Origin: Streptomyces deccanensis
Lineage (GTDB): Bacteria; Actinomycetota; Actinomycetes; Streptomycetales; Streptomycetaceae
NCBI RefSeq assembly: GCF_022385335.1
Contig: NZ_CP092431.1
Coordinates: 8,308,001 to 8,372,000 of the forward strand
Length of the DNA: 64,000 nucleotides
Direction of reading: 5' to 3'
How positions within the stretch are numbered: the first letter of the stretch is position 1; each line of letters starts with the position of its first letter. The position numbers were made by a program, and so were the translations under genes. Below, piece by piece: positions 27,794 through 38,472 of the stretch. The notes beneath the pieces were generated by a model. It saw nothing but the letters and a program-made list of their open reading frames with translations, did not search any database and was not told where the DNA came from.

Positions 27794-27799
27794 GCCGGT
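27794..27799. repeat. Left target-site duplication of the IS21 element
   Basis: GCCGGT directly precedes the left terminal repeat; the same six bases follow the right end at 38467-38472. Confidence 0.75.
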
Positions 27800-27825
27800 T
27801 GTCTGTAAGCACTTGTTTTGGCCCC
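27800..27825. repeat. Left terminal inverted repeat of IS21 element
   Basis: It begins TGTCTGTAAGCACTTG and continues TTTTGGCCCC. It matches the complement of 38441-38466 at most positions. Confidence 0.82.
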
Positions 27826-28105
27826 AGTGGCGGGCTGGAGGGGGCGTGTATTGGTGTGATTCACGCCCGTGTAGCAAGGTGATTTGGCCCCACTTCGATC
27901 GGGTGGTTCCACTGGCCTGGACGGGGGGTGGTCACGGTAGTTTTGAAGCCTCGGTGGACCTCCGTCAGCGCGCCCCCGACAGGTGCGTGGAGGGTTGCCG
28001 ACCCGACTCGACTCAGGCCGCGGACCGCCCAGTGTCCGCGGCGGCTGGACGAGAGCGGGCGATGGTGCGGTCGGCACTGGGACTTGACGGCCGGGCCCGA
28101 AATGG

Positions 28106-28141
28106 CTGCGGCCGGCCTCCCGCAAGGGAGGCCGGCCGCAG
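28106..28141. terminator. 16-bp perfect hairpin after istB
   Basis: CTGCGGCCGGCCTCCC (28106-28121) pairs perfectly with 28126-28141 around GCAA, 14 bases beyond the istB stop on the minus strand. The GNRA-like loop and stem length fit an intrinsic terminator. The rest of 27826-28105 holds no recognisable gene. Confidence 0.75.
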
Positions 28142-28154
28142 TTGTCCAGGCGGG

Positions 28155-28289
28155 TCAGCGACGGCGTTTCCGCTGGCTCTGGGCGAAACGGTAGGACTGG
28201 GTGCCGGTCTCGACGATGTGCGCGTTGAACGTGACCCGGTCGACGATCGCCGTGCAGAGGCGGGGATCGGTGAAGGTCTGCTTCCATTC
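28155..28289 (-). pseudogene. istB: istB, 3' part (separated by insertion)
   Basis: It encodes EWKQTFTDPRLCTAIVDRVT and HIVETGTQSYRFAQSQ, the C-terminal end of the IS21 ATP-binding helper. Joined to the 5' part ending SNAPFS at 31948, it recreates the family's SNAPFSEW junction exactly. It has no start of its own. Confidence 0.85.
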
Positions 28290-28428
28290 ATCTGGGGCTG
28301 GCATTTGTTCCCTCACACGGGTTGCCGCTGCCACCTGGCCGTTTCCCGTTCCTGCGGTCCTCGTTGGTTCTCGCGGTAGCAGCCTGGTTTTCAAGGTGCT
28401 GCCTTGACCGTTCAGGTGCGAGGAAGGT

Positions 28429-29501
28429 GTGCCGGTGGCCGAGGCGAGACTGCAGGTCATCGCGGGCGGGGCCGTCCCGCAGACGCCGCTGACGACGGAT
28501 CCGTGGCAGTTCCAGGCGGCGTGTGTTGACGCGTTCGTCGCTTCGTGGAGGGCCCGCGGGTTCAGCCCGGTGACCATCGACAACGACATCGGGCTGCTGG
28601 AGCGGACGCTCACGGCGCTCGGCCGACCCGCGTGGGACGTGACGCCCGAGGACATCGACCGCGTCGTCGGTGACCTCGCGGTCCAGGGCCGCAAGACCTC
28701 GACCCGGCGGGAGTACGTGCAGATCTTCAAGGGCTTCCACCGGTTCCTGCAGGCCCGTAAGGCGGCCGAGATCGAGGCCGCGTTCGGCGTCCGGCTGGTC
28801 TGCCCGGTCGACGAGTTCAACGCTTCGCGGCATGTCGGCGACGAGTCCCCGGCTCTGCTTCCGCCGCCGACACCCGAAAGGGTGGCCGAGTTCTTCGACT
28901 TCATGAAGCAGCGGATCGCCACCGCCCGGAAGTACGGACCCGCGGCCCGTGACTATGCGATGTTCCGGACGCTGTATCACGCCGGGCTCCGCTCGGAAGA
29001 ACCCTCGCTGCTGGAAAAGCCGGACGCGCACTTCACCCGTGGCCCGTTCGGCAAGCTGCATGTCCGTTTCGTTCAAAGGCGCCCACACCTCCGGGCCTCG
29101 CCCTCGCTGGGTTCCCATGCTCGACGGTCTCGACCTCGTGCTGCGGTGGTTCCTGGAAGACGTACGGCCCAAGTTCCCCAACTCGCCGGTGCTGTTCGCC
29201 GACGAGTCCGGCGGGCCCCCTGCACCGCGGGACGATCCGCAACCGGCTGCGGTATCTCATGCAGTTGGAAGGACGGCCGGCGGACGAGCGGTTCAGCCCG
29301 CATGCGCTGCGGCGGGCCTGCGCGACGCACAACTACGAACGCGGCGTCGACCTGGTGGCGATCCAGCAAATGCTCGGTCACTGGACGGTCAGCTCGACCA
29401 TGCGATATGTCCGGCCCTCCGCGACCTTCATCGAGGACGCGTATCAGCGGGCGGTCGCCAGCACGCTGGCCGAGCTGACGGGGAAGGACACCACGGCATG
29501 A
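28429..29501 (+). pseudogene. Tyrosine recombinase with two frameshifts
   Basis: The first frame (28429 to about 29070) holds the N-terminal SAM-like domain (FVASWRARGFSPVTIDNDIG) and the first catalytic Arg in YHAGLRSEE. The frame shifts near 29072 to read FKGAHTSGPRPRWVPMLDGL, and again near 29213 to read LHRGTIRNRLRYLMQLEGR. The remaining catalytic residues are in SPHALRRACATH and MLGHWTVSSTMRYV, ending at 29501. All active-site residues exist but in three frames. The stop overlaps the next start (ATGA). AGGAAGG precedes the GTG starts at 28429/28435. Confidence 0.8.
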
Positions 29502-29812
29502 AGATCCGATGGCGGCTGCGGATGGCCGCAGCCCAGCGCGAGGTGTGGACCGGAACGGAACTGCGGCGGCTCCTGGCCGAGAAGGCCGGCCTGGAGCTGT
29601 CCTCGGCGTCGGTGTCCGCCCTGTTTACCAAGGAGCCCTCGCAGATGAAGATGACCACGCTGGCCGCGTTGTGCACCGCGCTGGAGTGCACCCCTAACGA
29701 CCTGATCGAGGTCGACACCACCCCCGTCGAGCGACCCATTGCACCACCCCGGCCGGTCGCCGACCTTCCGCCAGCCGCCTCAGCCAGGGGCCGGTCCATG
29801 CCACCCCTGTGA
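29498..29812 (+). CDS. Small Cro/C1-type DNA-binding protein
   Basis: The 104-residue protein has a compact helix-turn-helix of the Cro/HTH_26 type: ELRRLLAEKAGLELSSASVS as the recognition part, then MTTLAALCTALECTPNDLIE. The C-terminal 30 residues are Pro-rich. The ATG overlaps the recombinase stop and the next gene starts 15 bases after its stop, so the three genes are one transcription unit. It probably regulates the element or assists recombination. Confidence 0.82.
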   Translation: MKIRWRLRMAAAQREVWTGTELRRLLAEKAGLELSSASVSALFTKEPSQMKMTTLAALCTALECTPNDLIEVDTTPVERPIAPPRPVADLPPAASARGRSMPPL

Positions 29813-29827
29813 CCAGCGGAGAGCACG

Positions 29828-31450
29828 ATGGGCAAGAGGCAACGAGACTGCGTCACCTGCGGAGCTCCCGTCGGATATCTCGACCGCCTGCACTGTTGCC
29901 GATGCCGGCGCCGGATCGAGGAACAGGCGGCCAAGGCGACATGCCCGGCCTGCGGCAAGGCTCGCGTTCTCCAGCAGGACACCGGCCGGTGCATCACGTG
30001 CTCCCGCGTCTGCGACGAATGCGGCCATCCAGTCCGAGCGTCCCACACCCGGCTGTGCCGGGACTGCCGCCGCAAAGCCGAGCAGATCGCGGCCCAGCAG
30101 GTGTGTCCCCGCTGCGGCAGGCCCGGCTATCTGCGAGAAGACACCGGCTGGTGCGGCCACTGTTCCCGGCCCCGCCAAGACAAACAGCCACCGCGGACCT
30201 GTCGCGAGTGCGGCCAGGTGCGGCGGCATGCCGGACTCGGGCTGTGCTCAGCATGCTGGCAGAAGCATCCCGGCCGCCCCTTCATCCGCGGTGAACACCT
30301 CCGAGACCAACTCGCCGACCCGCCGGAGTGGCTCGATACCTTCATCGCCCATGTTGCGGGCACCCACTGCGTCTCCAGGGCCTGCGGCTTCGTCACCGAC
30401 TTGGGCCGACTCCTGGGAGACGAGCACTCCAACTCGCCCCAGGCGCTGTTGGAGCGGTCCCGCAGGCCAGGGCGGTCGATGGGCTCGTTCGCCCGTGCAC
30501 TCGAGGACTTTTTCACCCTCCATGGCCTGGCCCTGCCCACTGACCAGGCCGAACGACTCGCGGTCGGCCGACGCAGACGCCGCATCGACGCGGTCCCCGA
30601 ACCGCTGCAGCAGGCCGTCATCGCCTTCGACGCCTTCCGGACGCGGGCCCAGCAGCGGGCCCGGCGGGCCGGCACCCGCCCCCGCAGCAACCACACTCTG
30701 GAAACAGCTCTGACCATCCTGCGTGACCTGGCGCTCTTCCTGATCAGCCAGCGGAACAAGAACGACTGGGCCCTCGTCGATGTTCACGACGTCGAAGCGT
30801 TCCTGGCCACCTTGCCCAAAGCACGCAAGCGCCGACTGGTCGTGCTGGGCCAGTTCTTCCGCTTCGCCCGTGCCCAGCACATCGTGCTGATCGATCCGAC
30901 CCGGAACATGACCTCCAAGAGCTCAAAGGGTTTCCGCGGCAGGACCCTCACCCTCGACCAGCAGCGCTGTCTCTTCCGCCGCTGGACGACCAACGAGGAG
31001 GTCCATCCCCACGAGGCAGTCGTGGGGATGCTCGCTCTGCTGCATGGTGCCTCCAGCTCGGAGGCCCGGATGCTGCAGGTCAACGACGTGGACCAGCAGG
31101 CCCAAACGGTCCGGCTCGGCAAGCGGCCCCATCCTGTCCCGCTCGATCCCGCCTCATGGACAGTGCTTCAGCGCTGCCTGGACCATCGCCAGGCATGGCG
31201 GACCGACAACCCACACGTCGTAGTCACCAAAGGGACAAAGGCCGGGCGAAGCCCGGCCTCCACCGCCTACCTCTCCCACGTCCTCGACGACTGCGGCTTC
31301 CCGCCCCGGATGATCCGCAGCACCCGCCTTGTCGACATGGTGAACACGATGGACCCCAAGCTCGTCGCCGCCGCGTTCGGAATGGACCCGCAGGCCACCC
31401 TGATCTATCTCGCCGACCACGTCGACGAGGGCCGTCTGCCGGCACCGTGA
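29828..31450 (+). CDS. Zinc-knuckle integrase-like protein, catalytic residues largely lost
   Basis: This 540-residue protein starts with ten CxxC or CxC knuckles within residues 8-143, enough for about five zinc ribbons. Residues 150-540 follow the tyrosine-recombinase layout: a helical core-binding part (AVIAFDAFRTRAQQRARR to FLATLPKARKRRLVVLGQF) and a C-terminal domain. The expected catalytic positions are poor: GLRxSE is GASSSEA, the HxxR motif is RSTR and LGH is FGM; only the Tyr (ATLIYLADH) remains. It is probably an accessory DNA-binding partner of the upstream recombinase. It converges on the barstar gene with 13 bases between the stops. Confidence 0.72.
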   Translation: MGKRQRDCVTCGAPVGYLDRLHCCRCRRRIEEQAAKATCPACGKARVLQQDTGRCITCSRVCDECGHPVRASHTRLCRDCRRKAEQIAAQQVCPRCGRPGYLREDTGWCGHCSRPRQDKQPPRTCRECGQVRRHAGLGLCSACWQKHPGRPFIRGEHLRDQLADPPEWLDTFIAHVAGTHCVSRACGFVTDLGRLLGDEHSNSPQALLERSRRPGRSMGSFARALEDFFTLHGLALPTDQAERLAVGRRRRRIDAVPEPLQQAVIAFDAFRTRAQQRARRAGTRPRSNHTLETALTILRDLALFLISQRNKNDWALVDVHDVEAFLATLPKARKRRLVVLGQFFRFARAQHIVLIDPTRNMTSKSSKGFRGRTLTLDQQRCLFRRWTTNEEVHPHEAVVGMLALLHGASSSEARMLQVNDVDQQAQTVRLGKRPHPVPLDPASWTVLQRCLDHRQAWRTDNPHVVVTKGTKAGRSPASTAYLSHVLDDCGFPPRMIRSTRLVDMVNTMDPKLVAAAFGMDPQATLIYLADHVDEGRLPAP

Positions 31451-31463
31451 CCAGTCGGCCTGG

Positions 31464-31847
31464 CTAAGAAAGGCGCAGGCCGCCCGGAAGTTCCTCTTCA
31501 ATGATCTCGACCAGCCAGTCGAAGGCGGTCGGGCCACGGCCGGCGCGGGCTTCCGCCAGCCGGGCGGCCATGTGTTCCTTGTTCGTCGGATGACAGCGGG
31601 CGAGCCACATCTCGAGCTGCCGGGCAGTCTCGGGGTGCCCGAGATGCTGGCGGGAGGCTTCGTGGTCACGCCATTCGATCATGAAGTCGCCATCGTCCGG
31701 TGTCCCGAAGCCGCCGCGGAGGCAGTCAGCGAATGCATCGAGGTTCCGGCCGAAGTAACCGCCGCAGCCGATGCTCTCGCCGGCGACCCGCCAGAAGTCC
31801 TCCAGCGACCTGACCTGGCTGCCGTCCAGCACATATCTCACTGTCAC
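31464..31847 (-). CDS. Barstar-family ribonuclease inhibitor
   Basis: The 127-residue product begins MTVRYVLDGSQVRSLEDFW and has the family features GYFGRNLDAFADCLRGGFG and an acidic C-terminal helix region (AFDWLVEIIEEEL). Barstar proteins bind and block barnase-type RNases. No barnase or polymorphic toxin gene is present in the window, so this is a lone immunity gene carried as cargo of the element, on the strand opposite to the recombination genes. It could neutralise toxins of competitors or a chromosomal RNase. The start is GTG with a weak ribosome site. Confidence 0.85.
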   Translation of the reverse strand: MTVRYVLDGSQVRSLEDFWRVAGESIGCGGYFGRNLDAFADCLRGGFGTPDDGDFMIEWRDHEASRQHLGHPETARQLEMWLARCHPTNKEHMAARLAEARAGRGPTAFDWLVEIIEEELPGGLRLS

Positions 31848-31891
31848 AGCCCGCAGAGTACGTCCAACCCGGCGGCCTGCCCATTCGTTTT

Positions 31892-31928
31892 GAACCCGTG
31901 CTGTTCAGGCAGCACCTCGCACGGGTTC
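31892..31928. repeat. Nested inverted repeats at the right end of the istB-inserted element
   Basis: GAACCCGTGC (31892-31901) pairs with GCACGGGTTC (31919-31928), and inside it GTGCTG (31898-31903) pairs with CAGCAC (31910-31915). It lies 20-55 bases from the element end, a suitable place for recombinase arm or core binding sites. Confidence 0.55.
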
Positions 31929-31947
31929 GCCGGAACGTGTGCGCTTT

Positions 31948-32625
31948 CGAGAACGGGGCGTTCGAGGCGATCGCGATGGCCCGTCGTTCCTCTCGCTCCG
32001 TGAAGATCTGGAACAGCAGTTTGGCTCCGGCCTTGTCCAGGTTGAGGTAGCCGAACTCGTCCAGACAGAGCAGGTCGACGCGGCCGTAGCGGGCGAGGAG
32101 ACGGGTCAGCTTCTTCTCGTCCGCGGCTTCCGCTAGTTCGTTGACCAGGTTGACCGTGGTCGTGTAGCGGACTTTGAGCCCGGCCTCGGCCATCGCCGTG
32201 CCGATCCCGATGAGCAGGTGGGACTTACCCGTGCCGGAGTCGCCGATCAGGCAGAGCGGTTGCCCCGCCTTGACCCAGGCAGGGTCGGACAGAGTGCCGA
32301 CGATCTCAGGGGTGACATTCGGATTCTCGGTGAAGTCGAAGTCCTCCAGCCGCTTGGGGCGGGGGAAGTTGGCGTCCCTGACCAGCCGTTGCTTTCGTCG
32401 TTCCTCGCGATCAGCGCACTCGGCTTCCAGCAGGTCGGCGAGGAAGTCCTTGTAGCTGGACCGCTGCCGCATGGCGTCGGCGGCCATCTCCTGGACCCTG
32501 CGGCGGATTGTGGGCAGGTGCAGAGCCCGGCAGGCTTCGTCGATGGCCGTGTCCACGGCCTCCTCCGGTCCCGTGTCCTGGCGGGGCGGAGGAACCTGGG
32601 TGGCCGTGGTGCCGGTCGTGCTCAT
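31948..32625 (-). pseudogene. istB: istB, 5' part (interrupted)
   Basis: It encodes most of the IS21 helper ATPase: Walker A GDSGTGKSHLL, the TTVNLVNELAEA helix, Walker B LLCLDEFGYLNLDKAGAKLL and FQIFTEREERRAIAIASNA. Coding stops at SNAPFS (31948), where the inserted element begins. The ATG overlaps the istA stop (ATGA). Upstream, AAAGG serves as ribosome site inside istA. Confidence 0.88.
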
Positions 32626-33662
32626 GCGGTGCCTTTCGGTTGACGTGTCAGAAGCTGGTCGTAGTGGGCGACGGTCGGCAGCGGTCGTTTGTCCTCGGGC
32701 AGCTGGGCCCGACGGGCCGTCAGCGACACCACGCCGCTGGGCTCGGCCCAGGGCGGCGGGTCACCTTCGTCGTCTGGGTCCTCGGGTGGGGCCGGGGCCA
32801 GGGCAGCTGCTCTGCGGGCCTCGACGGCAACCACGTCCGGGCTGCTGGAACCCGCCCGGATCGCGGCGGCCATGCCTTGTTCGACGGCAGCTGCGGGCAT
32901 CCGCCGGTGCAGCAGCAGAACCTCGATCAGCGCGCGGGTTCCGGCCGCGTCGCCGTGGGCCGCGCGGGCTGCGGCCCAGAACGCTTCGTGGACCTCGGTG
33001 AACGAACCGTTCTGCCGGGCCGTGACCAGCGCGGTCGAGCCGGCCATCGCCCCGGGCTTGGCCAGCAGGATCTCCAGGTAGTGGTCGAGTTCGTCGCGGA
33101 AGTCGCCCCGGCGGGTCAGCCGCGGGTGGCGGGCGACGATCTCCCGCCGCTCGAAGACGAGGAGTTCGTTGCCCCGCAGCAGGACCCGCACGTTCTGGCC
33201 GATGAAACGGGCCGGCACCGAGTAATGGCACTGCCTGACCGTGATCCTGCTGCTGCGGTCGACCTTCGGGGTCATGGTGATGCCGCACTCGAACTCTTCC
33301 AGCGGCAGCGGCGCCAGCTGGTCAGTCTCGGCGACGAAGTTGAAGCCGACAGTGGTCAGCCTGCCCGCGAGGATCCGTTCGTCCTCGGCCGCATCGATCT
33401 CGGCAAGCCGGGGATTGAGCTCTTCCAAGGTGGCGACGTCGGGGACCGGGACCAGATGCGTGCGTCTGAACCGGCCGCCCTCGTGCTCGACCCCGCCCTT
33501 CTCATGGGCGCCGTCCTCGCCGGGGACCCAGTAGAAGGCATCGAAGCCATAGTGGGCCCGGAAGGACAGCCACCGCTCCGACTCGATGCGGCTGCGGCCG
33601 GTGCAGACGCGGTTGACCGCTGGTTTCAGGTTGTCGTAGCGAATGTGCCGGGTCGGGATGCC
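32622..33662 (-). pseudogene. istA: istA, 3' part (separated by insertion)
   Basis: The minus strand reads GIPTRHIRYDNLKPAVNRV, then YGFDAFYWVPGEDGAHEKGG with the last catalytic Glu region of the DDE domain, VPDVATLEELNPRLAEIDA, and a C-terminal SH3-like part (ITVRQCHYSVPARFIGQNV). It ends at TGA 32622, overlapping istB. Coding similarity starts at 33662, where the second inserted element ends. Joining to the 5' part restores VLGGIPTRHIRYDN. Confidence 0.87.
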
Positions 33663-33716
33663 TCTAATATGCGGGTCTCGTTGTCAAGCCATCGTCGATT
33701 CGGAGAGAGTTCGTTG

Positions 33717-34115
33717 GTGAGCACTGAGTCGCATCGCAGCCTGCGCTATGTGGACGACATCACTCGCGATGACGTCCTCGCCCTGGAGGCGTTCATCTAC
33801 TCCCAGCTTCGGCCAGTCCAGGACGCGGCTGGCGAGACCGGGGACACGTTCTGTGCCTTGCGTTCTCTGGAAATCCTGGTCTGTGACTCGGCAGGGCTCC
33901 TGCTGGCGCTCCTCGAACGGGGCGGTCGCGGCCAGGAGGAGCGGTCCGCCATGCTCCGCGAATGGAACCGGCTGCGGACTACCGCCAGCTGGTGGGAGTA
34001 TCGCGACGGATACGACATCGGCCGCTGGAACCGCCTGGAGCATGTGGACGCCGCTGCCGAAGCCCAACACGATGCCGAGATTGCGCGGATCCAAGCAGCT
34101 GCTGGGAATGCGTAG
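33717..34115 (+). CDS. Uncharacterised small protein carried by the istA-inserted element
   Basis: The 132-residue protein starts at a GTG with GGAGAGAG upstream. It is largely helical and acidic (RYVDDITRDDVLALEAFIYS, LEILVCDSAGLLLALLERGG, REWNRLRTTASWWEYRDGYD). I recognise no family or function. It is transcribed away from the element's left end, opposite to the recombinases, and its antisense frame is the overlong tail of the neighbouring recombinase. It is likely cargo or a regulator of the element. Confidence 0.6.
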   Translation: MSTESHRSLRYVDDITRDDVLALEAFIYSQLRPVQDAAGETGDTFCALRSLEILVCDSAGLLLALLERGGRGQEERSAMLREWNRLRTTASWWEYRDGYDIGRWNRLEHVDAAAEAQHDAEIARIQAAAGNA

Positions 34116-35982
34116 TGAGGCGGGCAACCTCGGTGCAGATGCGGCGAGTTGTGGGAGTAAGGAGGCTTCGCCGTCGAGTCGGCTGAGGAGTCCGTCGAAG
34201 ATGTGCTCGCGGGCGACCTGTCCCTTGGCGGCCGCATCATCCCGCTGGCGTTCGAGGGTGGGCCGGAACTCGATCGTGGTGATGAAGAAGGTGCAGGACT
34301 CGCAGATCGACTCGAAGTGGCAGTCCATTTCGACGGGGCGAGCGCAGTAGCCGTTGCCGAGCATCCGGCGGTGCATCTCCCGGCGGAGCTTGGCCATCTC
34401 CGCGCCCTCGGCGTCCGCCGGGAGCTGGCGCGGGGCGTCGTAGAGGGCCTCGACCTTCTCCGAGACGGCGAAGTACTCGTCGGCGACGGTCCGGTCGGCT
34501 ATCCGCGCGTAAACACGTGTCATGGACAACGACCGGTGGCCGAGGAGTGCGGCAATGGCCTCCAGGGACATGCCCCGGTTGATCGCCTGGGTGGCCAGAG
34601 TATGTCTGAGCTGGTGCGGGGTGACCCGGCCCAGACCGGCCCGCTCGGCGGCCTTGCGGACCGCGGCCTCGATGCGGGAGGCATTGACCGGGCGGCCGTG
34701 GTCGGTGAACAGCAGGTTCGAGCGCAGTCCCTCGGGCCGGTGCAGCAGCCAGTCGTCCAGCAGCGTCTTCAGCTGCGGATGCAGGGGAACATAGCGGTCG
34801 GTGTGCATCTTGCCGACCGGGACGCGGAGCCAGTAGGCGGAGCCGATCTGCACGACCGCGTCGATGGTGAGGCCGAGCATCTCGCTGCGGCGCATCCCGG
34901 TGCGGGCGAGGATCTCGATGGCCAGCCGGGCGAACGGATCGCCGGCGGGCGGCGGTCAGTAGCTTGGCGGCCGCGGCGTCGTCGAGGAAGCGGGGCAGCG
35001 GTTCGTCCGCGATCGGGAAGTCGCTGTCGAACACCAACTGGCGGGGCGGCCGGTCGGCGGCATCCCACTCGTCCAGGCGGCGGAAGAAGCCGCAGAGTTT
35101 GCTGAGGCGGTCGCGGACGGTGTGGCGGTGCAGCGGTCCGCCGCGGGCGGCCGGCCGCTCCAGCAGCCACTGCCGGTAGCGTTCGACGTGCCGCCGCTTG
35201 AGCTGGGCGACGCAGGTCACGGCAGGGTCCTCGGTGGTAACCAGCAGGGCGAACTCCCGCAGCGTCAGCTCTGCGTTCTTCACGGTGCCCGGCCGCAGTG
35301 TCCCGGCGATCTGCCGCAGGTAGTGCTGCATCGTTTCCGCCATTCCGGCCGGGTCCCGGGCCCACTCCTGGGCTCGGATGTCGGCCCGGTCCGGGGAACG
35401 GCGGCGGGGAAGCTGGTCGGTCAACTCGCAGTGGAACAGTGTCGCTTCAAGGTTGAACAGGGCGGTGGACAGGGCCTTGACGCCGCGGTTGGGGATGCGG
35501 CGGGCCGCCTCCAGCAGCAGGCGGCGCCCCTCGTCCCAGTCAATCCGCTGCAGCTGGTCAGGCCGTTTCGCGAACAGCGCGATGAAGTGGCCCAGCAGGT
35601 TGAACTGGGTCATCGCCACCGCGTCGCGGAAGCCGAGCGTGTGGGCGGTCTCCATGAACCGCAGATGCAGTTCCGGCTCCGTTCGCGCAAGCACGATGCC
35701 CAGTCGCGGACGGCGGGCGACAAGATAATCGGCGCCGGGCCGCATCCGTCCGGTCACCGCCAGCCAGCTGATGAACCGGTGGGTCTCGTGGTTGAAAGCG
35801 AGCTGCCGGTCCAGCGGCAGCCGGCAGAAGTCAGTCAGGTCGGGCACTGCGGCGAGCAGGGCACGGGCTCCCCAGCGGACCTTGTGGTCGGTGTTCATGC
35901 CCTGCGCGGCCCGGTGGGCGAGGTAGTCCGCGACGAGGTCCGGGCGCACGATCGGCAGGGCCGCGGCGCGGGCCCGGCGCAT
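34116..35982 (-). pseudogene. Tyrosine recombinase, frameshifted in the catalytic domain
   Basis: The N-terminal part (35982 to about 34945) has a long core-binding region and a second SAM-like domain (TVKNAELTLREFALLVTTED). A one-base shift near 34943 moves the rest into another frame: ARTGMRRSEMLGLTIDAV, HQLRHTLATQAINRGMSLEA, LLGHRSLSMTRVYARI and a Cys cluster (CHFESICESCTFF). All catalytic residues are present, so the gene decayed recently or the shift is a sequencing error. The frame stays open to 33684, but that tail is antisense to the plus-strand gene, so I end it near 34116. Its ATG overlaps the upstream stop (TGATG). Confidence 0.72.
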
Positions 35983-37004
35983 CAGCTGTCCGCCCGGTCG
36001 GCGTCGATGGCCGCGCTCGCCTGCAGGTACTGCTCGACGAGCCAGCTGTTCGCCAGGTGGATGTAGACGCGGGTGGATTCGATGGAGCGGTGTCCGGCCT
36101 GGGCCTGTACCGCTTCCAGGGCCATGCCGGCCTCGCGCAGCCGGGTCAGGCAGGTGTGGCGGAGCTGGTGGCAGGTCAGCTTCGGCAGTCCGGTGCGCTT
36201 CCGGACGCCGTCGAGGATCTCGTCGAGGCCGTCGGCGGAGAGCGGCCGACCGCGGGTCGGTCCGCGCAGGACGACGAACAGGTGGTCGTGGTCGACCGGT
36301 GGACGCTCACGGTCCAGGTAGTCGCCGACCGCGGTGAAGAACTGCGCGGAGATGGGTATCAGGCGCTGGTGCCCGCCCTTGCCCTCGCTGATGAAGACCC
36401 GCCGCTCGCCCGGTGACAGGTCGCCCAGTTTCAGGCCGAGGACCTCGCAGCGACGCAGTCCGCCCAGCAGCATCGCGAGGATCATGGCCCGGTCCCGAGC
36501 AGTGTTCACCGCACCGAGCACCGCCTCGACCTCACTCGGCCCGAGGACCCGCGGAAGGGTGCGTGGCGTGCGCAGCAGCGGTGCCCCGCGGTTGCCGCTG
36601 CGACGGCGGTTGGCCAGCCCCGTCGGCACCGGGTTGCGGTCGATAGTCGTGTCGTCGCGGGTCATCAGGTAGCCGAACAGCCCGGAAATACTGGCCAGTC
36701 GGCGCTTGATAGTGCGGGCCGAGAGCCCTGCTTCACCGTCTTCGAGCCGGACGACCTTCGGCCCTCGCCGCGGCTTCTTCTGCGCGGTGATGAACGCGAA
36801 GACGTCCGCGGTGACGACGTCGGCCGGTTCCTTGGGCACGACCGAGAAGAAGACCTTCAGGTCGTAGGCGGTGGCCAGCAAGGTGTTGGGCCGGCAGCGT
36901 GCCGCCACGAACTCCAGGTAGTCGTCTACCAAGGCGTGTCCGAGCGATGCCGTCGGGTTTCCCGCCGCATCGACGCGTCGTACCAACTGCGGTTGCCAGG
37001 CCAT
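35982..37004 (-). CDS. Tyrosine recombinase (site-specific integrase)
   Basis: The ATG at 37004 has GAGGAG five bases upstream and gives 340 residues. The N-terminal SAM-like domain covers residues 20-120 (LVDDYLEFVAARCRPNTLLA). The catalytic set is complete: Arg in LLGGLRRCEVLGLKLGD, Lys region in GKGGHQRLIPI, HxxR in CHQLRHTCLTRLREAG, GH in AQAGHRSIESTRVYIHL with the Tyr nucleophile. It is the only tyrosine recombinase in the island without a frameshift, so it could still move the inner element. It is coupled to the downstream recombinase. Confidence 0.9.
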   Translation of the reverse strand: MAWQPQLVRRVDAAGNPTASLGHALVDDYLEFVAARCRPNTLLATAYDLKVFFSVVPKEPADVVTADVFAFITAQKKPRRGPKVVRLEDGEAGLSARTIKRRLASISGLFGYLMTRDDTTIDRNPVPTGLANRRRSGNRGAPLLRTPRTLPRVLGPSEVEAVLGAVNTARDRAMILAMLLGGLRRCEVLGLKLGDLSPGERRVFISEGKGGHQRLIPISAQFFTAVGDYLDRERPPVDHDHLFVVLRGPTRGRPLSADGLDEILDGVRKRTGLPKLTCHQLRHTCLTRLREAGMALEAVQAQAGHRSIESTRVYIHLANSWLVEQYLQASAAIDADRADS

Positions 37005-37075
37005 CCGAGCTCCTCGGCGGGAGCGACCATCCTGACCGGGAACGTGAGATCGCGGAAGAGTTGTCACCCACATAA

Positions 37076-37671
37076 CCGCCCAGGACGTTGAACGCTTCGA
37101 CATGACCTTCCATGAAGGATTCCTGGGCCTCAGATGCATAGACGCGGTGGACGGCCTTTCCGGAAAACGACAGCCGCAGCGTGAACAGGTGGCACTTGAC
37201 GACCTCGCCCGCCAGGCGAACCCACACATCGGCGAAGTCCACCTCGGCTTCTTCGCCGGGCAGATGGACCTGCGGGACCATGCCCGTCAGATGCCGGCGC
37301 CCTTCCAGGGCCTCCGCCTCGATCTGCGGCCTGCGGATCGCGACGTAGTCGCACACCGTGGAGTACGACGCCTGGTCGAAGCCGTACTCCTGCGCGAGAC
37401 GCTGGTAGATCCTTCGGGCGGTGTGTTTCTGCTTGCGCGGCGCGGTCGTGTCCTCCCGCAGCATCACGTCGATCCACGCCTTGGCCGGGTCCAGGACCGT
37501 GGCCCGCGGCGCCGGTTTCTTCCTCGGCGGCGGGACCGCGGACGTCAGCGCCTGCCGCACCGTCCGCTTGTGGACCCCGTACTTCGCCGCCAGCGCCCGC
37601 TGTGACATTCCCGGATCGAGACGCTTGTCCCTCCGGATCGCGGCGAACAGTTCTGCCCGCGACAAACCCAT
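37076..37671 (-). pseudogene. istA: istA, 5' part (interrupted)
   Basis: It encodes the N-terminal half of the IS21 transposase: a helix-turn-helix (MSQRALAAKYGVHKRTVRQA), an ARRIYQRLAQEYGF linker domain and the first part of the DDE domain (EEAEVDFADVWV with the first Asp, then SEAQESFMEGHVEAFNVLGG). Similarity stops at 37076 where the two-recombinase element begins. GGGAGG precedes the ATG. Confidence 0.87.
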
Positions 37672-37863
37672 CCCGGCCTCCCGACAGGACCGTGATCAAC
37701 CAACACGGCCTCCGACATGACCGTGATCGACACACAAACCCTGCCGTCGTCGGGCGGACGGACCAGCGCATTCACTCCAAAGAGGGCACGTTGCAGACTT
37801 TCCTGGCCGGCCCCCTCACCAACATCGCCCAATGAAGCAAGCCAGGCAGATGGTGATGCTGCC

Positions 37864-38331
37864 TCAGTGCTGGATCAGGCCGCCGACCAGGACAGGAGCG
37901 ACGTGACCGGTTGCCGGAAGGGTCTGTGCCAGCGCGAGGCCGATGTCGACCAGCGATGAACGGCGCAGGCAAGCGACATCGGGGATCGCAGTCCAGACCG
38001 ACTCCGCGATTTCGCCGTTCGGCTCAGGCCGGAGTCGGCCGCCGGTGATGCGGACCCGGTAGAAGATGCCGACATTCTGGTGCTCGACTCCCGCCCGTGC
38101 GACGGCGGCGGGGATCACCCTCGAGTCCACGCCCAGCAGGCGATCGACCACCGCGGCGCAGCCGGTCTCCTCGGCGACCTCCCGGATCACCGCATCGAAT
38201 GGATCCTCCCCGTGCTCGACCCTGCCGCCCGGAAGGGTCCAGCTGCTCTCGCCCTCCGGTGATACGTGACGGGCGAGCAGCACCCGCCCGTCCTCGATGC
38301 ACACGGCGTACGCCGCCAGCCGGAAACTCAT
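37864..38331 (-). CDS. Nudix hydrolase, passenger gene of the IS21 element
   Basis: The 155-residue protein has a full Nudix box: GGRVEHGEDPFDAVIREVAE followed by ETG, with the REVAEE metal-binding core. Nudix enzymes hydrolyse nucleoside diphosphates linked to another group; the substrate is not readable. GGGAGG lies before the ATG. It sits inside the IS21 inverted repeats, between istA and the right end, in the same direction as istA. Passenger genes are uncommon in this family. Confidence 0.88.
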   Translation of the reverse strand: MSFRLAAYAVCIEDGRVLLARHVSPEGESSWTLPGGRVEHGEDPFDAVIREVAEETGCAAVVDRLLGVDSRVIPAAVARAGVEHQNVGIFYRVRITGGRLRPEPNGEIAESVWTAIPDVACLRRSSLVDIGLALAQTLPATGHVAPVLVGGLIQH

Positions 38332-38440
38332 CCCCGCACCTCCCGCAGGACCCTATCCAACGTCCAAGATCTGCGCATCGCTTCGCGGGGTGGAGCCAGA
38401 TCAACTTCTTACGCCTGGAGCCACTTCTGTTCCGAGTGGT

Positions 38441-38466
38441 GGAGCCCAAAGAAGTGCTTACAAACA
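38441..38466. repeat. Right terminal inverted repeat of IS21 element
   Basis: It ends AAGTGCTTACAAACA, the inverted counterpart of the left repeat at 27800. The inward copies of TGGAGCCA at 38416 and 38394 fit IS21-type multiple end repeats. Confidence 0.82.
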
Positions 38467-38472
38467 GCCGGT
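38467..38472. repeat. Right target-site duplication of the IS21 element
   Basis: GCCGGT, identical to 27794-27799. It ends one base before the stop codon triplet of the TetR gene, so that gene escaped disruption. Confidence 0.75.

Follow-up and report, generated by a model that had tools for sequence, protein, structure and literature searches.

The stretch of DNA analysed here, 64,000 nucleotides of the Streptomyces deccanensis genome (G000:C1:8308001-8372000; the window), contains an IS21-family insertion sequence (IS) in which both transposition genes are split, istB by one insertion (E1) and istA by another (E2). E1 and E2 are very probably two independent site-specific transposons that carry their own tyrosine recombinases and whose attachment site is the DNA encoding a motif that is conserved in a transposition protein. 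With E1, this site would consist of the istB codons directly after SN-x-x-(F/P), and with E2 of the istA codons LG|G(V/I)P, directly before the DN motif; in the window a single IS21 element would have taken both. Insertions at these positions recur in many other genomes, and the double split is therefore more than chance.

Two insertions in one IS21 element

Direct reading of the sequence showed that the outer element spans 27800-38466. Its two ends match each other (TGTCTGTAAGCACTT from 27800, and TGTTTGTAAGCACTT, in inverted orientation, up to 38466), and a copy of GCCGGT flanks it on each side (27794-27799 and 38467-38472). Terminal inverted repeats of the form TGT(C/T)TGTAAGCACTT with a short target duplication, together with an istA transposase gene and an istB helper ATPase gene, identify it as a member of the IS21 family. 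Both ist genes lie on the minus strand. The N-terminal part of istB, from the Walker motifs to SNAPFS, occupies 31948-32625 (open reading frame (ORF) 31726-32625; NF038214, 200.9 bits with a cut-off of 200, and PF01695), and the C-terminal part (28155-28289) lies within the left end of the IS21 element (27800-28289), as judged from the IstB frame after joining and from alignment to two insert-free relatives, L171 and L172. The N-terminal part of istA is at 37078-37671 (ORF 36733-37671; NF033546, 140 bits, under the cut-off of 160) and the C-terminal part at 32622-33662, the latter placed by the frame after joining and by alignment to the IstA of L171.

E1 occupies 28290-31947 (plus strand; ends ATCTGGGGCTGGCA... 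and ...GTGCGCTTT) and E2 occupies 33663-37077 (minus strand; ends TCTAATATGCGGGTCTC... and ...GTTGTCACCCACATAACC), the limits in both cases being given by ends common to the relatives and by a gap-free join. When E1 was removed (28289 joined to 31948), a single open IstB frame ran through SNAPFSEW, and removal of E2 (33662 joined to 37078) restored VLGGIPTRH in IstA, hence the limits of E2. L171, from an S. globisporus plasmid, gave one continuous match for IstB (91% over 268 aa) and one for IstA (86% over 544 aa); L172 has 81.7% DNA identity, its own ist frames being broken at other places. The alignments to both relatives were gap-free across both joins in the 24 bases shown per side, indicating that no bases were duplicated or added at either insertion.

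These results agree in most respects with a first-pass annotation made from the letters of this DNA, which had described a nested island with istA and istB each interrupted between two copies of GCCGGT, had predicted that removal of 28290-31947 would restore SNAPFSEW, and had asked for IS21 relatives running continuously through both predicted joins, as L171 and L172 do. Its view that two unrelated tyrosine-recombinase elements are involved also stood, since both inner elements hold tyrosine-recombinase genes. For E2 it had the restored motif and the left end right, but its right end, 37075, is 2 bp short and loses the IstA frame; the correct position is 37077. It did not mention that each window copy, of E1 and of E2, has a frameshifted recombinase gene, from which the nest is probably frozen. 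The host genome holds one copy of E1 and one of E2, and insertion sites were therefore surveyed across other genomes.

Insertion sites in other genomes

Relatives of E1 were sought through E1_B, its zinc-finger protein, which had a match at E 1e-20 or better in 28 of 295 genomes of the genus, the window genome included. A locus was assigned to istB if an IstB profile matched at the left junction or in the right flank, and by this rule 14 of the 30 loci of the genus search were istB insertions; these 30 include the window itself, some come from one genome and many have short flanks. A scan of one genome per species gave 93 E1 relatives, of which 80, on genome contigs, were kept. The target was istB in 56 of these (41 by both sides, nine by the right only and six by the left only), an IS256-type transposase gene in five (L093, L096, L103, L111 and L123), a TniB-like AAA ATPase gene, entered at DEAQ, in three (L121, L122 and L126) and some other gene in five, namely a DUF2637 gene (L087), PLD-like genes (L102 and L112), a TraA-like relaxase gene (L124) and an unknown gene (L109). 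The IS256 label was based on a profile for L096 and for the plasmid locus L040, and on reading of the flanks for L093, L103, L111 and L123. On plasmids, 11 E1 loci were distributed in six cases to istB, in one to IS256, in two to TniB-like genes and in one to a PLD-like gene, with one left without an assigned target.

IstB profiles, which were built from tblastn matches in the same loci, matched 51 of 66 E1 left junctions, and displaced control regions gave no match at all (0/59 at 1500 bp outwards, 0/54 at 2500 bp outwards and 0/85 at 800 bp inwards). The host IstB proteins belong to several IS21 subfamilies, with about 24% to 89% identity to the IstB of the window, and the insertion point typically lies a few codons past the SN of SN-x-x-(F/P). 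On the strand opposite istB the common site reads CCA-NNN|NNN-GAA, the element beginning with A(T/A/C)C... and ending in ...TTT. The sensor I residue of the IS5376 IstB is Asn199 (PMC11208146), and we infer that the Asn of SN-x-x-(F/P) is the same residue.

E2 was followed by a DNA search of 286 genomes of the genus, from which 19 loci were kept (L132-L150, of which L132 is the window; E 3.5e-19 or better); only these were used, the matches found in 246 of the 286 genomes at E 0.001 being largely short and weak. An element end was visible in 12 of the 19, and 11 of these 12 lay in istA at LG|G(V/I)P, eight by IstA alignment and three by reading (L138, L139 and L142). The twelfth, L145, is degenerate, and in the other seven of the 19 no end was found within three mismatches. 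A right-end match on the other strand at L139 was taken as spurious. Outside the window the IstA identities ranged from 27% to 91%, and the two IstA sides of L137 differ strongly (27% vs 56%). A scan of viral contigs with an E2 protein found no relative.

The inner elements were thus found mostly inside ist genes, and the suggestion of the first-pass annotation that these are preferred landing sites is supported, for E1 in istB and for E2 in istA. It can be narrowed from ist genes at large to a single codon motif, conserved, in each of the two. In sister clades the insertions lie in further transposition genes (IS256 transposase, TniB-like ATPase and IS3-type orfA) and in a small number of genes of other kinds.

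The orfA insertions belong to E2-like elements on Rhodococcus plasmids. At five loci (L045, L130, L166, L167 and L168) an element of 2955 bp lies at ILKxA|..FF..E in an orfA that, from its motif, we take to be IS3-type; an IS3-family match beside L130 and the deposited annotation back this label. The copies at L045 and L130 do not differ over 2956 bp, and L166, L167 and L168 have length, ends and protein accessions in common with them, L166 and L167 having the same site. L128, with 79% DNA identity to this element, is located in another IS3-type orfA, which brings the count to six resolved loci (L043, L044, L046, L127, L129, L131 and L170, without an assigned target, are not among them). L127, on plasmid pCHL of Nocardioides, has an E2-like pair of recombinase genes at a distance of some kilobases from an erm gene and SMR transporter genes. 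A distant three-gene Tn554-like element with DUF6262 is present on pBD2 (L169) between an annotated IS3 transposase and QALDNGLMESTIGLYKTEL, which was taken as IS3 orfB; it is apparently inside an IS3 transposase gene, and may be a third lineage with such a target.

Among E1 relatives the target follows the clade. On a tree of 79 E1_B proteins with hand-set target labels, 14 label changes were counted against 25.2 on shuffled labels, and none of 200 shufflings was as low as 14 ('undetermined' being counted as a group of its own); labelled rows alone required seven changes. This was a quick tree, in which near-copies inflate the clustering of targets. The IS256 and TniB-like rows form one supported group, separate from a main istB group of 57 rows that also includes L087 (DUF2637) and six rows without an assigned target; outside this main group are L095 and L101, both in istB, and a mixed Rhodococcus group. 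Near-identical copies occur within one genome at different targets: L065/L066 (99.0%) and L082/L083 (98.1%) lie in different IS21 subfamilies, and L103/L111 (94.4%) and L097/L102 (98.4%) are further pairs of this kind at different places. The last pair, from Rhodococcus koreensis, has L097 in istB and L102 in a PLD-like gene, and L097 also carries two adjoining stretches that match both flanks of L102 and so represent an uninterrupted PLD-like homolog.

Some copies have mixed flanks. In five of 49 junction pairs (L053, L055, L073, L098 and L107) the two IstB halves come, as read by eye, from different IS21 subfamilies; four of the 49 (L040, L087, L093 and L123) are not istB loci. Reading by eye was preferred to an automatic chimera flag, which was noisy, missed L053 and also marked L032, L040, L056, L058, L065, L067 and L123 on account of broken frames, non-istB targets and alignment offsets. 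At L168 the IS3 half seen on the left in L130 is joined to the half seen in L045. Recombination between element copies would be the simplest account of such flanks. Another IS21 that was hit twice, now a relic, is found at L164 (G123:C45, 4118-6177): its istA contains a remnant of E2 and a remnant of E1 lies at its istB, and E2 remnant, istB and E1 remnant have the order and orientation of the window. In L078 the bases directly left of the element repeat one of its inner stretches, either a local duplication or an assembly fault.

Genes and cargo of the elements

E1 encodes three proteins on its plus strand. The tyrosine recombinase gene (28429-29501), recognised by an XerA/XerD-type match of its first part, is frameshifted in the window copy: a frame of 349 aa is open, but alignment with L047 shows its second half to be shifted. 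L032, a relative with an unbroken gene, matches PF00589, and a frame of at least 330 aa is open from the predicted integrase start in 74 of 86 E1 loci, a count that overstates unbroken genes since it takes in the window and its copy L001, open but shifted. This gene is followed by one for a Cro/C1-type helix-turn-helix (HTH) protein (29498-29812; PF13443, 42.7 bits, cut-off 22) and by that for E1_B (29828-31450; 540 aa), a zinc-finger and tyrosine-recombinase-like protein whose cysteine pairs are kept across 24 sequences. E1_B has a weak integrase match (phrog_1, 1.2e-12), and a profile search of PDB returned nothing of weight (XerA at E 0.72). Its structure model (mean pLDDT 83.2, pTM 0.41) gave 57 PDB matches at E 0.001 or better, the best being lambda integrase (4.3e-7), and the 50 best listed are tyrosine recombinases or their kin, such as the prophage regulator MrpR. 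The ends bear short imperfect inverted repeats, in the common form read by eye GCACTTGTTC on the left and GAACATGTGC on the right. The DNA of E1 had no match in the phage collection searched.

Between E1_B and the right end (31451-31947 in the window) lies a slot for a single cargo gene that is swapped among relatives. In the window it holds a barstar-like gene on the minus strand (31464-31847; PF01337, 50.5 bits, cut-off 23.4) and in L032 a GNAT gene. At the 60 loci with a recognised right end the slot was filled in 37 (434-1052 bp, with an ORF of 100-216 aa) and empty in 23 (31-173 bp). A scan of nine cargo proteins identified DUF6228, HIT and HAD in three of them, the other six having no Pfam match.

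The recombinase genes of E2 are on its minus strand. The larger (34150-35982) is split over two frames in the window copy, its C-terminal frame (ORF 33684-34895) matching XerC at 7.5e-26, and is in frame in L134 by tblastn coordinates; the smaller (35982-37001; ORF 35982-37229) matches PF00589 with 111.5 bits and XerC at 2.5e-33. A small ORF of 132 aa on the plus strand (33717-34115), possibly cargo, has no match in Pfam, PHROGs or PADLOC. Near its right end the IS21 element itself carries a NUDIX gene (37864-38331, minus strand; PF00293), within a stretch (37789-38387) that is missing from L171 and L172, and the NUDIX gene is thus a variable passenger of IS21.

Interpretation and comparison with known systems

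E1 and E2 each have one recurrent target site, as is expected of site-specific tyrosine-recombinase transposons. Their insertion is exact and free of duplication at conserved codons in several IS21 subfamilies, uninterrupted sites exist, the ends are conserved, near-identical elements lie in different targets and sister clades are found in other transposition genes. In the mechanism that we propose, the integrase would excise the element as a circle and insert it through strand exchange within a short core, and the HTH and zinc-finger proteins of E1 may aid recognition of the ends or the target. A gene that is multicopy, dispensable and mobile would provide a harmless and spreading address, probably the chief benefit to E1 and E2, at the cost of a broken host IS.

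Several points weigh against this proposal. Five of the 80 E1 loci are in genes without a demonstrated role in transposition and 11 have no assigned target, and of five loci with the TniB-like target, one yielded the second half of the gene. The common core includes a CCA that is missing from the istB subfamilies at L054 and L060, so that the recognised DNA is not fully defined. Profiles built from the same loci could favour weak members, which the displaced controls answer only partly, and the circles, the strand exchange and the role of E1_B are all deduced from sequence.

If the elements were two ordinary, weakly selective ones whose arrival in a dispensable and decaying IS was accidental, IS21 would be no more than tolerant of them. 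IS21 is indeed dispensable and both copies in the window have decayed, but the same codon junction recurs across dozens of loci, among them divergent IS21 subfamilies, with no match 1.5-2.5 kb away, and we give this explanation hardly any credence. The shared position might also stem from descent of one ancient IS21-E1 composite (and one with E2) rather than from homing. Some pairs do share long identical stretches past the element, as L033/L074 (99.84% identity over 10.6 kb) and L035/L077 do; descent is nevertheless very unlikely to explain the pattern, given near-identical E1 copies in different IS21 subfamilies of one genome (L065/L066 and L082/L083) or in istB and a PLD-like gene (L097/L102), and related clades in IS256 and TniB-like genes. 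The exact, duplication-free position within conserved codons would equally suit an intron- or intein-like accessory of IS21 that restored the ist product by splicing, for which there is virtually no chance: the inserts encode tyrosine recombinases, E1 is antisense to its target, and Pfam scans of the insert ORFs revealed no intein or intron (no Rfam scan was made). A splicing element was rejected on these recombinase genes and the broken frames, a composite transposon on the lack of paired IS at the ends of E1 or E2, and a prophage on the lack of phage structural genes in the ORFs scanned and of a phage match for E1.

A further question is whether homing on transposition genes has been selected as a control of transposition, disarming IS21 and similar elements, beyond offering a safe address. 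Most resolved targets are transposition genes, struck in conserved parts, and for one IS a limiting effect of the group II intron that it contains has been proposed (PMC4238363). Against this idea, other target genes exist, and none of six scanned proteins matches a PADLOC defence family; selection for disarming IS21 is possible, but we consider it unlikely. Also tentative, and with the balance somewhat against it, is a broader proposal, in which several actinobacterial tyrosine-recombinase lineages (E1, E2, the Rhodococcus E2-like elements and perhaps the pBD2 element) would form a transposon-hunting class that inserts at conserved codons of transposition genes, switches between IS21, IS256, IS3 and TniB targets, disarms them, swaps cargo and shuffles transposase halves. 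The mixed flanks at L053, L055, L073, L098, L107 and L168 bear on the last of these.

The addresses for which site-specific elements are chiefly known are conserved genes of the host, tRNA genes among them. The address of E1 and E2 is the conserved core of transposition proteins, which is multicopy, moving and dispensable. Homing on such genes would account for nested islands in actinomycete genomes and plasmids, might act as a natural check on IS21-type transposition and could be a source of site-specific recombinases with a widespread attachment site; the shuffling of transposase halves by element copies becomes a testable question.

Searches of the open-access literature, which left most subscription journals outside, brought up no account of tyrosine-recombinase elements that home on transposition genes. 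IS4321 and IS5075, of the IS1111 type, are mobile elements specialised on another transposon, as they target the ends of Tn21-type transposons; they differ from E1 and E2 in having a DEDD transposase and in using the terminal repeats of the transposon instead of coding motifs.

The nearest counterparts of E2 and of the E2-like elements of Rhodococcus are the Tn554-related pairs, two- and three-gene elements of Actinobacteria described in 2012, in which two tyrosine recombinases are adjacent and one of them has a long N-terminal part; TnpC may be present or absent (Van Houdt et al., 2012, PMC3414803). Both pREL1, the source of L045, and pBD2, the source of L169, are listed there, with the remark that genomes with multiple copies may hold several similar attachment sites; the passages cited here name no transposase gene as target. 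E2 has the two adjacent tyrosine recombinases and, from its gap-free join, no target duplication. The sole small ORF examined for TnpC had no Pfam or PHROGs match, and some related elements are without TnpC (PMC3414803). The 6-bp one-sided footprint given for Tn554 in PMC10214605 was not found, the istA join showing no extra bases against L171 and L172, and E2 is therefore named Tn554-like rather than a member of Tn554.

E1 resembles SE, GInt and RIT, in which several recombinase genes act together, with a site preference, a cargo region and no conjugation genes (PMC10214605, PMC5385486), but differs from them in its set of recombinase, HTH and zinc-finger recombinase-like genes. SE has intA-tfp-intB-srap and a 6-bp footprint (PMC10214605), and E1 left no footprint at the tested junction. 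GInt has four gin genes and flanking imperfect direct repeats (PMC10214605, PMC5385486); of these, ginABCD, three encode putative integrases and one a helix-loop-helix protein, whereas the recombinase-like proteins of E1 number two and are accompanied by a single HTH protein. RIT has three adjacent tyrosine recombinases, and the middle gene of E1 encodes the Cro/C1-type HTH protein. The group II intron RmInt1 in ISRm2011-2 (PMC4238363) is like E1 and E2 in having its natural home inside an IS, which it may limit; it moves through RNA and splices, whereas E1 and E2 are DNA elements with recombinases.

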